DNA of 64,000 nt, from the NCBI GenBank assembly GCA_030683705.1, contig JAUXPP010000062.1, positions 1 to 64,000 on the forward strand, written 5' to 3'. A program made the translations under genes and the position numbers. A model generated the notes under the pieces. It was given only the letters and a program-made list of their open reading frames with translations, was not told the origin of the DNA and searched no databases. The stretch comes from Polaromonas sp. (GTDB lineage: Bacteria > Pseudomonadota > Gammaproteobacteria > Burkholderiales > Burkholderiaceae_C). Positions 2,428 to 11,995 of this stretch are shown in pieces; positions within the stretch are counted from its first letter, which is position 1, and every line of letters begins with the position of its first letter.

Positions 2428-3231
2428 TTGACTCGAATATTCGTCAAGTTTTACGGATTCAGTGACGCCGAGCGCCATGCCCTCGCCACCGTGTTTCGAC
2501 TGTCTGAATCGCACGAGGTGGCGTATTCGGCCTGGATGCCTCAGGCCACAGGCGAAACAGCCGAGCCCGACATCCTGCTGATTGACGGTGACAGCTGGGA
2601 GGCTGTGCTGGAGCTGGCCAAGCCCGAGCACGACGCGCTGAAACTGATCTGGGTCGGTGAGGCCCCACCCCTGCATGCCTGGCGCGTCTTCGCGGCCCCG
2701 GTGCGCTGGTCTGCGGTGCTGGAGGCGCTGGACGCCGAGTTTGCGCCGCTTACCTCGCAAGCGCTGTCGGCAGACCTGGCCCTGAGCGACGAGCATGACC
2801 TGGACGTCGTGCTGGACGAGGCCGATGACAACACCCAGCCAGCCGGGCTGGAGGGCGACGCCGAAATCACCCCGCCGCGCCGGGTGCTGTTGGTAGATGC
2901 CTCGCGCGATGACCGGCTTTATCTGCGCGCCAAGCTGGCTGCAGCTGGGCTTCATGAAGTGGACGAGGCGGCAACCGGCGCACAAGCGCTGGTTCTGCTG
3001 AACACCGATGCCTACCACCTGGTCACAGTGGATCTCGGGCTGACCGACATGGACCCCTGGCAACTGATCAAGGCGGTCGACAGCACCCGGCCCGCCATTG
3101 CCCACCTTTTTGTCACCGGCACCGCGCCGGGCTGGCAGACCGGACTTCGGGCCAGGTTCTCCGGCGCCGAGGTGTATCTGCGCAAGCCTCTGCATCCCGG
3201 CCAGCTCAAGGATTTGCTACAAAAAATATAG
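2428..3231 (+). CDS. Response regulator receiver-domain protein
   Basis: This is a 267-residue protein ending in a complete receiver domain (about residues 150-267). It shows the acidic start RRVLLVDASRDDR, the phospho-acceptor Asp in VTVDLGLTD, a Thr in LFVTGT and the conserved Lys in YLRKPLHP. Residues 1-110 look like a degenerate receiver (ILLIDGD, LIWVGE) lacking the full acidic pocket. No DNA-binding or enzymatic output domain is present, so it probably acts by protein contact. The start is TTG at 2428, because an in-frame stop lies at 2392. The last codons (LLQKI, stop) overlap the AT-rich end of a dispersed repeat. No cognate histidine kinase is adjacent. Confidence 0.75.
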   Translation: MTRIFVKFYGFSDAERHALATVFRLSESHEVAYSAWMPQATGETAEPDILLIDGDSWEAVLELAKPEHDALKLIWVGEAPPLHAWRVFAAPVRWSAVLEALDAEFAPLTSQALSADLALSDEHDLDVVLDEADDNTQPAGLEGDAEITPPRRVLLVDASRDDRLYLRAKLAAAGLHEVDEAATGAQALVLLNTDAYHLVTVDLGLTDMDPWQLIKAVDSTRPAIAHLFVTGTAPGWQTGLRARFSGAEVYLRKPLHPGQLKDLLQKI

Positions 3232-8284: not shown

Positions 8285-8956
8285 TTGACCCCCGATCTTT
8301 TTAATGATGATTTGCCCTCCTGCGACCAGCCGCAGGCACTGGCGCCTGGCGCCATGTTGCTGCGCGGTTTTGCGCGTGCCGCAGATGTCGCCTTGCTGCA
8401 GGCGCTGGAAGGTGTCACTGCGCAGGCGCCGTTGCGCCACCTGGTGACGCCCGGTGGGCACACCATGTCGGTGGCCATGAGCAACTGCGGACCGCTCGGC
8501 TGGGTGTCGGATCGCAACGGGTACCGCTACAGCGCGCTGGACCCGCTGTCGGGGAAAAACTGGCCGGCCATGCCTGCCTGTTTTGTGGGGCTGGCCGCGC
8601 AGGCCGCCGCCCAGGCGGGGTTCAAGAATTTCCAGCCCGACGCCTGCCTGATCAACAGCTACCAGCCAGGCGCCAAACTTTCCGTGCATCAAGACAAAGA
8701 TGAGAAAGACTTTTCTGCGCCCATCGTGTCGGTATCTCTTGGCCTGCCCGCCGTGTTTTTATTCGGGTCTGCCAGCCGCGGCGACAAGCCGCAACGTTAT
8801 CGCCTGACCCATGGCGACGTGGTGGTATGGGGCGGCCCGTCACGCCTGGCGTTTCACGGCGTGGCGCCACTGGCCGACGGCGTGCATCAACTGCTGGGCC
8901 GACGCCGGATCAACCTGACTTTTCGCCGAGCGGGCCGCGCATCAGCGGCGACGTAA
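8285..8956 (+). CDS. alkB: AlkB family alkylated nucleic-acid repair dioxygenase
   Basis: AlkB is an Fe(II)/2-oxoglutarate dioxygenase that oxidatively removes methyl groups such as 1-methyladenine and 3-methylcytosine. The iron ligands are visible as H-x-D in SVHQDKDE and the distal His in LAFHGV, and the 2-oxoglutarate signature R-x-N-x-T-x-R appears exactly as RINLTFR near the C-terminus. The start is placed at TTG 8285 because the protein then begins MTPDLFNDDLP, matching the E. coli AlkB N-terminus (MLDLFAD). An alternative TTG lies at 8243, and neither has a strong ribosome-binding site. There is no adjacent ada gene. Family confidence is high; start confidence is moderate. Confidence 0.88.
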   Translation: MTPDLFNDDLPSCDQPQALAPGAMLLRGFARAADVALLQALEGVTAQAPLRHLVTPGGHTMSVAMSNCGPLGWVSDRNGYRYSALDPLSGKNWPAMPACFVGLAAQAAAQAGFKNFQPDACLINSYQPGAKLSVHQDKDEKDFSAPIVSVSLGLPAVFLFGSASRGDKPQRYRLTHGDVVVWGGPSRLAFHGVAPLADGVHQLLGRRRINLTFRRAGRASAAT

Positions 8957-8997
8957 GGGCTGCGCTTGCCGGCAGGGGTGGGCTTGAAACCCTGGCG

Positions 8998-9255
8998 TCA
9001 GAAGTCTTCTGCTTTCAGCACCAGGGGATTGTCCGGGGTGTAGCTCACGCCCGCGACGATCATGTCGGCTGCCCGCGCATGAATCATCTCCGCATCCAGT
9101 GTGTAGGCACTTTTTAATGCGTCTGGCCCTTTGTCTGCCCCGAAGTACTCCTCCATCGCGTCACGGGAAATTTTGACCGGAATGATGCTGCCGGCGTGCA
9201 ACATACCAAAGCTGAGCCAGTCACCGTGATCGATGACATCCAGAGACGATTCCAT
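8998..9255 (-). CDS. Small DUF1488-like protein
   Basis: This is an 85-residue cytoplasmic protein. The start at 9255 is chosen because an excellent ribosome-binding site (AGGAGGGCGCCC) directly precedes MESSLDVIDHGDW. The core VKISRDAMEEYFGAD...LDAEMIHARAADMI resembles the DUF1488 domain (ISREALxDxFG pattern), a family of unknown function. The gene is monocistronic, converging on alkB from the right and divergent from the SulP leader region. Assignment to DUF1488 is from memory of the motif and is tentative. Confidence 0.6.
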   Translation of the reverse strand: MESSLDVIDHGDWLSFGMLHAGSIIPVKISRDAMEEYFGADKGPDALKSAYTLDAEMIHARAADMIVAGVSYTPDNPLVLKAEDF

Positions 9256-9376
9256 GGGCGCCCTCCTGTAGTTGTCACGAGAATAGCTGACCGACCGCCG
9301 GACGTACAGATTGGGAGAAACCACTAAGCTGCCAGGAAACCTTCCAATCCGTGAGCCGGCCTCGGGATGGAGGGTG

Positions 9377-9409
9377 TTGACTCGCGCTCGCCAGCGCGAT
9401 CGTTAGAAT
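9377..9409 (+). promoter_or_regulatory. Possible promoter for the SulP leader
   Basis: TTGACT at 9377-9382 and TAGAAT at 9404-9409 resemble sigma-70 boxes, but the 21-base spacing is too long for a good promoter. If TAGAAT is the -10 box, transcription would start within a few bases of the upstream ORF's ATG at 9416, making that ORF nearly leaderless. Confidence 0.25.
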
Positions 9410-9415
9410 GTTGCA

Positions 9416-9511
9416 ATGCACAAGGGCCTTCTCACGCAGCTGTCTGCCCCGGTGGTTTATCCGGGCTGCGGGTTGCCGCGCGGTTACTTCTGCTCTGTGA
9501 CGCCGCCCTGA
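9416..9511 (+). CDS. Upstream small ORF / candidate leader peptide of SulP gene
   Basis: This is a 31-codon ORF starting at ATG 9416. It encodes a short peptide rich in Pro, Gly and Cys that ends [11 protein letters not shown] before TGA. It lies 125 bases upstream of the SulP start. Its stop codon is the first part of an 8-base-pair helix closing a three-way junction (9509-9562). A Pro-Pro end at a stop codon is a known cause of slow termination, and two Cys codons would allow sensing of cysteine supply, which would suit a sulfate transporter. It is too short for membrane insertion or enzymatic activity. Translation is inferred from position and structure, not demonstrated. Confidence 0.45.
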
Positions 9512-9562
9512 GTGTCACTTGAGGCGTGTGCAGCCTCTGAATCCGGCCGGATCCGACACTCG
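9509..9562 (+). ncRNA. Predicted three-way-junction RNA in the SulP 5' leader
   Basis: P1 pairs 9509-9516 (TGAGTGTC) with 9555-9562 (GACACTCG), eight pairs with one G-U. P2 pairs 9521-9525 with 9533-9537 (GAGGC/GCCTC) around a 7-base loop. P3 is the palindrome ATCCGGCCGGAT at 9541-9552. P1 includes the stop codon of the upstream ORF, so a ribosome terminating there would prevent P1 formation. Confidence 0.45.
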
Positions 9563-9636
9563 TCTGTCGCATCGATCCATTCCTCTTGTTTCTTGACTCC
9601 TGACAGCCAGGCACACCCTGGGCTGCGCCTATTCCA

Positions 9637-11121
9637 TTGAAAACACTGTACCCCTCCATCCGACAGGACTGGTTCTCCAACATCCGAGGCGACCTGCTCG
9701 CCGGCCTGGTGGTGGCATTGGCCTTGATTCCCGAGGCCATTGCCTTTTCCATCATTGCCGGTGTCGACCCCAGAGTTGGCCTGTACGCTTCGTTCAGCAT
9801 CGCCGTGATCATCGCCTTCACGGGTGGTCGACCGGGCATGATCTCGGCCGCCACCGGGGCCATGGCGCTGGTCATGGTCATGCTGGTCAAGGAACACGGC
9901 TTGCAGTACCTGTTGGCGGCGACCATCCTGACCGGCGTGCTGCAGATCATTGCCGGGGCGTTCAAATTAGGCGTCCTGATGCGTTTTGTCTCGCGTTCGG
10001 TGATCACCGGTTTTGTCAACGCGCTGGCCATCCTGATCTTTCTGGCGCAGTTGCCCGAACTCACCAATGTCAGCTGGGTGGTCTATGCCATGACGGCCGC
10101 CGGCCTGGCCATCATTTACGGCTTGCCCTACATCACCAGGGCCGTCCCGTCACCGCTGATCTGTATCGTGGTGCTCACCGCTGTGGCGATGGTCCTCAAG
10201 CTCGACATCCGCACCGTGGGCGACATGGGGCAACTGCCCGACAGCCTGCCGATTTTCCTGTTGCCCGATGTACCCTTGAGTCTTGAGACGCTGAAGATCA
10301 TCCTGCCGTACGCCGCGACGCTGGCCGTGGTCGGTTTGCTCGAATCCATGATGACCGCTTCGATTGTTGACGAACTGACCGACACCCCGAGCAACAAGAA
10401 CCGCGAGTGTGTGGGGCAGGGTGTGGCCAACATTGCCACCGGTTTCATGGGTGGCATGGCCGGTTGCGCCATGATCGGGCAGTCGGTGATCAATGTGAAA
10501 TCGGGCGGGCGCGGGCGCTTGTCCACTTTTGTTGCCGGCCTGTTCCTGTTGATCCTCATCGTCTTTCTTGGCCCCTGGGTCAAACAGATCCCCATGGCCG
10601 CGCTGGTGGCCGTCATGATCATGGTCAGCATTGGCACTTTCAGCTGGGACTCGATCCGCAAGCTGCGGGAGCACCCGCCGAGTTCGTCCCTGGTGATGAT
10701 TGCCACCGTGGTGGTTACCGTGGCCACCCACGACCTGGCCAAAGGCGTGTTTGTCGGCGTGCTGCTGTCCGGTCTCTTTTTTGCCCACAAGGTCGGGCGT
10801 GTGTTGCGCGTGGACCGCACGAGCGACGACGAGGGCCGGGTACGCAGCTACGCCGTGGTTGGCCAGGTATTTTTTGCCTCCTCGGAGACCTTTGTCGGCG
10901 CCTTCGACTTCAAGGAGGTGGTTGAGCAGGTGCGCATCGACGTGAGCCGCGCGCATTTCTGGGACATCACCGCCGTGAGTGCACTCGACAAGGTGGTGCT
11001 CAAGTTCAGGCGCGAGGGCACACCCGTCGAGGTTACCGGCCTGAACGAAGCCAGCGCCACGCTGATGGATCGTTTTGCGATACATGACAAACCCGGCGCG
11101 GTGGAACAACTCATGCACTGA
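9637..11121 (+). CDS. SulP family inorganic anion transporter with STAS domain
   Basis: SulP proteins move sulfate, bicarbonate or other anions across the inner membrane. The 494-residue product begins with the family segment [27 protein letters not shown], has about 10-12 membrane segments to residue 385, and ends in a cytoplasmic STAS domain ([17 protein letters not shown] near residue 440). The start is TTG at 9637 with no obvious ribosome-binding site; an in-frame stop at 9601 rules out a longer form. The weak start fits translational control by the structured leader upstream. The universal stress gene follows 16 bases downstream, probably in the same operon. Substrate is not resolvable from sequence. 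Confidence 0.88.
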
Positions 11122-11137: not shown

Positions 11138-11995
11138 ATGAACAAGGTCTACGCCTGTATTGACGGGCTTGCAAACACCTCTGCCGTGATCGACTGCGCT
11201 GCCTGGTCGGCACTGCGGCTCGGCGTGCCCCTGGAGCTGTTGCATGTGCTGCAACGCAATATGGAGCGCCCCCAGGTCACCGACTACAGCGGCAGCATTG
11301 GCCTGGGCGCGCAGGAGGCTTTGCTTGCGCAACTGAGCGAACTGGACGAACAACGCGGCACGCTGGCGCAGGAAGCCGGCCGCCGGCTGCTGGCTGCAGC
11401 GCGCGAGCGGGCCGTTGCCCTCGGCGTCTCCCAACTCGATACCCGGCTGCGGCGCGGTGACCTGCTTGATACCGTGCTCGAGATGGAGCCGGATGCGCGC
11501 CTGTTTGTGCTCGGCGAGCATTACCACGCGAGCGCGGCCTCAAGAATCCATCTGGACCACCATGTCGAGCGTGTGATCCGCTCGGTCAAACGGCCGGTGC
11601 TGGTAGCCACGGGCGAGCAATTTGAGGCGCCCCGGCGCGTGGTTATCGCATTTGACGGCAGCCCGACCGCGCTCAAAACCGTGGAGACGGTGGCACGCAG
11701 CCCCTTGCTGACAGGTCTGCCAGTGCTGGTGGCCATGGCCGGTGTGGAAACCACGCTGGCACGCCAGCAGCTTGAAGACGCCCGCATGGTGTTGACGGCG
11801 GCGGGATTTGAGGCCGAGGTTGACCTCATTCTCGGTGAGCCGGAAGAGGTGCTGCCCGCACTTGTCAAGTCCCAGCACGCCGCCTTGCTGGTCATGGGGG
11901 CCTACGGGCACTCGCGTATCCGCCAGTTGATCGTGGGCAGCACGACCACCACGCTGCTGCGGCTGAGCGAAGTGCCCGTGCTTGTTCTGCGCTAA
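11138..11995 (+). CDS. Tandem universal stress protein (two UspA domains)
   Basis: This is a 285-residue protein with two UspA folds (about 1-145 and 150-285), starting at MNKVYACIDG behind AGGAGA. The C-terminal domain keeps the ATP-binding signature G-x2-G-x9-G-S (GAYGHSRIRQLIVGST). The N-terminal domain has a degenerate version (LGEHYHASAASRI), so only the second site probably binds nucleotide. Length matches UspE-type tandem proteins. It lies directly behind the SulP gene; SulP-Usp pairing is common in proteobacteria and suggests the stress protein modulates transport, as inference. Confidence 0.85.
   Translation: MNKVYACIDGLANTSAVIDCAAWSALRLGVPLELLHVLQRNMERPQVTDYSGSIGLGAQEALLAQLSELDEQRGTLAQEAGRRLLAAARERAVALGVSQLDTRLRRGDLLDTVLEMEPDARLFVLGEHYHASAASRIHLDHHVERVIRSVKRPVLVATGEQFEAPRRVVIAFDGSPTALKTVETVARSPLLTGLPVLVAMAGVETTLARQQLEDARMVLTAAGFEAEVDLILGEPEEVLPALVKSQHAALLVMGAYGHSRIRQLIVGSTTTTLLRLSEVPVLVLR

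Follow-up and report, generated by a model that had tools for sequence, protein, structure and literature searches.

How is a SulP transporter gene controlled that begins at a TTG codon with no Shine–Dalgarno (SD) sequence, and does the short open reading frame (ORF) ahead of it take part? The window in which this question arises, a 64,000-nt stretch of a Polaromonas sp. contig, had been the subject of an original prediction made from the letters alone. It described a 31-codon upstream ORF (uORF) with a Cys/Pro-rich end, whose stop codon lies in the P1 helix of a three-way-junction RNA, ahead of a transporter with a TTG start and no ribosome-binding site. Both the ORF, read directly, and the SD-less TTG start were confirmed (Table 1). 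Judging from homologous leaders, the best explanation, to which we assign a probability of roughly 0.58, would be ribosome arrest at the Pro-Pro-stop of a leaderless uORF that controls the downstream gene.

Table 1. Features of the SulP leader region and the adjoining genes in the window
Feature	Positions	Strand	Basis
-10 element TAGAAT, 6 nt ahead of the uORF ATG	9404..9409	+	Hexamer position statistics
Probable leaderless leader-peptide uORF, 31 codons	9416..9511	+	Translation, alignment, codon statistics
Conserved C-terminal end of the uORF, presumed arrest motif; stop TGA at 9509-9511	9473..9511	+	Alignment and codon test
Hairpin H1, GAGGC/GCCTC, from the 10th base past the uORF stop onward	9521..9537	+	80% paired; recovered by RNAalifold
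Hairpin II, just 5' of the SulP start	9604..9625	+	Sliding folds; RNAalifold pairs in alignment A3
SulP/SLC26-family anion transporter, TTG start, no SD	9637..11121	+	Pfam Sulfate_transp 2.1e-59, STAS 2.6e-9
Universal stress protein gene, next after SulP	11138..11995	+	Pfam Usp 4.4e-23

The uORF, its conserved end and its start

SulP orthologs were collected from 61 genomes (that of the window included) and from 399 genomes of the family, 70 matching at E ≤ 1e-100. A matching uORF was detected upstream in 18 of the 39 orthologs whose 5' DNA was read, a count that omits L001 (which duplicates L002) and L010 (close to the limit of 45% identity) and includes the fragment L013. One of the 18, L009, has an ORF that is out of frame with its own -10 element and ATG, and the same apparently holds for the uORF of L151. 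The uORF was not found in the other 21 loci read, among them the fragment L013 and L035, which ends in SVTPP without RG-F. Two loci outside the 39-locus set, L077 and L097 (85% identical at the N-terminus), either lack the uORF or have an ORF that continues beyond the motif.

Across 17 aligned peptides, M1 (GTG starts being written as M), R22, G23, F25, P30 and P31 are invariant and L20 and V28 nearly so, while the N-terminal half is variable, and the family signature reads ..L-P-R-G-[YFH]-F-x-x-V-T-P-P-stop. The length is 31 codons in 13 of the 16 SulP-anchored uORFs with a start. The 17 SulP-anchored uORFs were picked with a regular expression that already prescribed some of the motif; their differing codon pairs comprise 523 synonymous and 329 non-synonymous ones, and the differences at codon positions 1, 2 and 3 number 253, 157 and 690, respectively. 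Both the synonymous excess and the bias towards the third position support selection at the peptide level.

A wider set was obtained by scanning genome contigs for codons that spell G[YFHL]F[CF][SA]VTPP-stop, and 80 of the 81 resulting stretches were analysed. Seventy-eight of these loci were taken as genuine uORFs, and L146 (Thalassospira) and L152 were judged chance matches to the codon pattern. At codons -18 to -12, which lie beyond the search pattern, the contig-scan set yields 5186 synonymous against 9059 non-synonymous pairs, with L212 (which contains a run of N), L174 (truncated at the locus end) and ends of identical sequence omitted from the test; L at -13 and P at -12 are well kept. 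Since the changes in codons -18 to -12 are mostly non-synonymous, the conservation of the uORF is concentrated at its end.

A short upstream ORF with a conserved amino-acid sequence, as expected of a leader peptide, is thus present, and the end of this ORF is kept among homologous upstream regions. The proposal of a regulatory leader with a proline-rich end is therefore strongly backed by conservation; the role that had been given to cysteine at this end is not, since codon 26 encodes C in 12, F in 3 and R in 2 of the 17 SulP-anchored uORFs. The uORF of L055 has His in place of Cys. Conserved Cys codons, the mark of a cysteine-responsive leader, were not found in these 17 uORFs.

The -10 box in front of the uORF was absent from the original prediction. 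A -10-like box lies 6 nt before the start in 15 of the 17 SulP-anchored uORFs and 5 nt before it in one (L049), and none precedes the uORF start of L009. In 45 of the 78 contig-scan uORFs a start codon stands exactly 31 codons before the stop (ATG in 29, GTG in 16), and in 39 of the 44 unique 31-codon uORFs the -10 hexamer is found at -12, i.e., with the box 6 nt before the start, compared with at most 4 of 44 at each of 33 other offsets. Of the remaining 33 uORFs, 26 belong to a longer type, in which the in-frame ATG and the stop are 44-49 codons apart; here 22 of 25 unique loci have a -10-like hexamer 6-9 nt ahead of the ATG (12 of them at 8 nt), and a second hexamer peak is seen 20 nt ahead of the ATG (9 of 25). 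A -10 box was also recognised by eye in two plasmid copies of the uORF. The TTGACT located 21 nt ahead of the -10 element of the window is too distant to be a standard -35, and the column statistics of the 31-codon uORFs show no prominent -35. With transcription expected to start 6-8 nt past a -10 element, the start site would be at or adjoining the uORF start codon, and the fixed -10 spacing, which is well supported, indicates that the uORF mRNA of the window is probably leaderless.

A leaderless uORF that terminates poorly at Pro-Pro-stop could also act as a permanent brake or ramp, setting a low and unregulated level of SulP. In E. coli, Pro-Pro at the C-terminus is by itself stated to interfere with termination (PMC2998420), and the variable N-terminal half of the peptide, together with the fact that no signal is identifiable, would agree with such a brake. 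Yet R22, G23, F25 and V28 are conserved well beyond Pro-Pro and the length is recurrent, which suggests specific contacts in the exit tunnel, so that we regard an unregulated brake as quite improbable.

Distribution and downstream genes

Nearly all contig-scan loci derive from Betaproteobacteria by record title. The genera include Polaromonas, Variovorax, Hydrogenophaga, Acidovorax, Rhodoferax, Ramlibacter, Massilia, Duganella, Herbaspirillum, Noviherbaspirillum, Zoogloea, Denitromonas and others. Apart from the chance match in Thalassospira, the exceptions are a Sphingobium MAG (L190), whose leader is identical to that of a Zoogloea locus (L193), and a Gammaproteobacteria MAG (L198).

With a profile of the uORF, 17 of the 399 family genomes yielded a total of 19 strong matches (E ≤ 1.3e-7), followed by a gap to 1e-3. 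Fourteen of the 19 are the SulP-linked copies that mostly make up the profile, and five are new and not located before the collected SulP genes (L130, two in L131, L132 and L133), the copy in L133 preceding an acyltransferase-3 gene. The order-wide search produced matches in 4 of 399 genomes, two of which were new (G693 and G721), both ahead of SulP. In the phylum-wide search, which scored up to 20 candidates per genome and may thus have missed copies, 3 of 398 genomes gave matches, namely G000 and G102 again and one marginal. The uORF codon pattern had no match in viral contigs. Among plasmids, tblastn at E up to 10 returned seven records; in the two that were examined, H21 and H23, the uORF precedes SulP. 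The feature tables of these two plasmid copies, which are incomplete, list no gene at the uORF.

SulP is located downstream of the motif in 69 of the 80 contig-scan loci. Other loci have an MBOAT gene (L203, by Pfam; L213, by 93% identity over 69 residues), an acyltransferase-3 gene (L189 and L191) or a gene for a Bax1-I-like protein (L145) at this position, L163 and L178 have genes for membrane-like proteins without a Pfam match, and in L181 the downstream sequence is too short. The good 31-codon, leaderless-looking uORF of Polaromonas sp. CG9_12 (L170) has no recognised sense gene downstream and is perhaps a remnant. On one contig of Comamonadaceae bacterium ALPHA2B two uORF copies lie about 7.3 kb apart, L163 ahead of a small membrane-like protein and L191 ahead of an acyltransferase-3.

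The occurrence of the same peptide before MBOAT and acyltransferase-3 genes supports a module rather than a sulfate-specific leader. The link to sulfate is further weakened by the nearest solved relative of the transporter, 5da0 (E 1.2e-189), SLC26Dg of Deinococcus. The use ahead of acyltransferase genes suggests that the uORF senses something other than sulfate, and considering also the replaceable cysteine, we conclude that the signal is not simply cysteine or sulfate. The partners identified by Pfam belong to known multi-pass membrane families, and this shared property may or may not be a clue to the signal.

The universal stress protein gene that follows SulP in the window adjoins SulP also in Comamonas sp. 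C11. A query with the SulP-Usp pair matched 1,717 plasmid records, 1,716 of them at 60-80% identity and many from Klebsiella, Enterobacter and Acinetobacter; in the best 20 of the 1,717, the DNA similarity starts at or just past the SulP start and not at the uORF.

RNA structure between the uORF and SulP

The letters of the window permit the helices of the predicted three-way junction: P1 can arise from T9509-C9516 and G9555-G9562 (seven Watson-Crick pairs and one wobble), 9521-9525 can pair with 9533-9537 in the GAGGC/GCCTC hairpin (H1), and the palindrome ATCCGGCCGGAT claimed as the second inner hairpin is present. Folding of 9400-9650 and of 9500-9600 is no better than that of shuffles (z of 0.27 and -0.08, respectively), and P1 is found in neither of the two minimum free energy folds. 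In ten window-like loci chosen by eye (alignment A3), in which TTGAAAA at the SulP start is invariant, standard pairing occurs in 62% of cells for P1, 70% for H2 (ATCC/GGAT) and 80% for H1, with a compensatory change in one of the five H1 pairs. The whole structure is paired in 69.3% of cells, compared with 32-52% for slid versions and 66.2% for shuffles (13 of 500 as high); 5 of 500 shuffles attain its covariation score, and 480 of 500 its further pair types. H1, as the best-paired helix, carries most of the support for the structure.

A junction in which a ribosome at the uORF stop opens P1 could account for the pairing above the slid versions and for the retention of H1 in near relatives. 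P1 itself, however, is poorly kept in relatives and was rejected as a conserved helix, and the sequence past the stop differs widely across uORF-bearing loci. Pairing upstream of the homologues is thus mostly not conserved, there is poor support for a three-way junction with the stop codon in its P1, and we hold control by such a junction to be very improbable.

Two other structural features recur over 67 loci, from which two near-identical leaders had been dropped and in which the SulP start was set by hand for L141, L169 and L192 (for L141 and L192 alone in one other analysis). The region of hairpin II, at -42 to -7 of SulP, has a mean z of -1.62, with 70% of loci below -1; in 19 orthologs without a uORF it is weaker (mean z of -0.69, 47% below -1), and 32 loci of the SulP group of 60% identity have their best mean z, -1.21, at -48 to -13. 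Hairpin II is thus partly present without the uORF and not specific to uORF leaders. A weaker hairpin is located at +20 to +61 past the uORF stop (mean z of about -0.9). Between the two lies an open, pyrimidine-rich stretch: windows from -66 to -19 fold no better than shuffles, and positions -50 to -41 contain 14% G and 73% pyrimidines, with a C/G ratio of 2.40.

This open stretch allows for a different output, in which a ribosome paused at the uORF stop shields the pyrimidine-rich, G-poor and unstructured RNA, and its release leads to Rho termination before SulP. Termination of this kind would suit the members without an SD and has a proposed precedent in CruR of Bordetella (PMC9426467). Nevertheless, the base composition is a weak argument for a rut site, and the anti-SD pairing in the Massilia-type clade argues for translational control there; we consider Rho termination as the main explanation unlikely.

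In 13 Massilia-type leaders with an SD, the anti-SD in question, a CCTTCTC-like sequence, begins 4 nt past the uORF stop and is able to pair with the SD of SulP. Alignment A4 comprises these 13 of the 16 Massilia-type loci, with L186 and L204 (poor pairing, z of 0.6 and -0.2) and L201 (nearly identical to L185) omitted, and its rows are related and were chosen after the general pairing test. Standard pairs make up 88.6% of its cells, compared with 52-66% in slid controls and 85.4% in shuffles (16 of 500 as high). Four of the seven pairs changed on both sides, a number reached by 6 of 500 shuffles and also by one slid control. The general test, which used automatic SulP start codons, gave a mean z of -1.25 for pairing between the post-stop sequence and the start region in 20 SD-bearing loci (6 at p ≤ 0.05), whereas the 49 SD-less loci, the kind to which the window belongs, had no excess of pairing (mean z of -0.15; 4 of 49 at p ≤ 0.05). 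The pairing is thus supported in one clade and was rejected as a general rule.

Proposed mechanism and relation to known systems

In the arrest mechanism that we favour, the 5' end of the mRNA would be the uORF start codon or lie within a base or two of it, and ribosomes would read the leaderless leader of 31 codons. Once LPRG-Y-F-x-x-V-T-P-P occupies the exit tunnel and the A site contains the stop codon, termination would be slow or arrested, perhaps conditionally, and the parked ribosome would cover the first ~10-12 bases past the stop. The effect stated for Pro-Pro at the C-terminus in E. coli (PMC2998420) and the arrest proposed for CruR both speak for this reading. In the Massilia-type leaders with an SD, parking would cover the anti-SD, so that the SD is free and SulP is translated, and SulP would be silent when no ribosome is parked; from this geometry we infer the direction of control, i.e., that parking switches the gene on. 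In the window and its relatives without an SD, the ribosome would stand against H1 and cover the pyrimidine-rich spacer, thereby acting on the start region or on Rho. The output in the clade of the window might thus be translational, via H1 and hairpin II, or Rho-dependent as proposed for CruR.

Bordetella, the host of CruR, belongs to the same order, Burkholderiales. According to PMC9426467, the CruR/DUF2946 uORF (B. pertussis bp2923) has Pro-Pro near its C-terminus, and arrest on RAPP, with Rho control, is proposed to govern the downstream genes; CruR differs from the peptide family described here in its 145 residues, predicted export, CXXC and RAPP motifs and copper sensing. The window peptide, read directly, has 31 residues, neither CXXC nor RAPP, and its Pro-Pro directly before the stop. 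TnaC is a leader peptide that arrests the ribosome with a stop codon in the A site. The C-terminal arrest presumed here would also resemble that of C. difficile CliM, for which PMC13183943 reports a stop codon in the A site and a transmembrane segment, the uORF peptide having none. By eye, TnaC and CliM have no sequence in common with the uORF peptide, which is characterised by the conserved RGxFxxVTPP and a leaderless form. In ErmC-type attenuation, the ribosome parks on an anti-SD, so that the SD of the following gene becomes free, comparable to the masking proposed for the Massilia-type clade only; here, unlike in that system, the uORF is probably leaderless, and the clade of the window has no SD. 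Poly-cysteine uORFs occur in mycobacteria. Leaderless small ORFs upstream of genes are reported for mycobacteria (PMC4633059), whereas the present uORFs occur in Betaproteobacteria, form one conserved peptide family and are not cysteine-based.

The uORF peptide has no Pfam or NCBIfam match at E ≤ 1, and no description of the uORF was found among the matches listed in a search of open-licence papers. Leader-peptide attenuators are a known kind, and it is the peptide family, the leaderless form of recurrent length and the modular use that appear undescribed. Tentatively, we propose as a possibility that these betaproteobacterial uORFs constitute a class of their own, a new and modular kind of leaderless arrest peptide. 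In it, a ruler of 31 or ~44-49 codons ending in RGxFxxVTPP-stop would park the ribosome at the stop and switch on the genes of multi-pass membrane proteins (SulP, MBOAT, acyltransferase-3, Bax1-I-like); what it reads might be the insertion of membrane proteins or some shared metabolite instead of sulfate. An unrelated uORF ending in SG(C/R)(S/T)R(L/P)(T/A)PP-stop would have arisen separately before a sister SulP group. A widespread leader whose promoter puts the start codon at the 5' end of the mRNA, with a recurrent length, a small motif and a clear downstream gene, would provide an unusually clean Gram-negative system for studying termination arrest and leaderless translation.

The uORF joins other leaders as one of several alternative controls of a single SulP subfamily. 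In L058 and L059, Rfam sul1 RNA (RF03058), a structured RNA and not a peptide, takes the place of the uORF ahead of the same SulP subfamily; in positions 8500-10500 of the window no sul1 RNA was found at E ≤ 1, the only Rfam match being mir-4654 at E 0.15. The second uORF type, unrelated to the first and likewise leaderless-looking, was observed in L062, L063, L064, L072 and L082 upstream of a SulP of ~60% identity; it has 23-48 codons and lies 7-8 nt past TACAAT or TAGAAT. A profile built from these five uORFs recovered the same five as the only strong matches in 339 genomes, together with two marginal ones. In L040, L043, L053 and L054, a conserved element, CGGAGTTYC..ACC.GTGTAAGCCTC..GCTCGCRCGA.GC..TYCGA, is located ~200 nt before SulP; it has no Rfam match at E ≤ 0.5, and by eye GCCTC/GAGGC and CGGA/TCCG stems are possible. 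Lithium-sensing riboswitch classes are reported in PMC9646797, and an nhaA-I RNA (RF03057) was detected downstream of SulP in L005, at 3148-3205.
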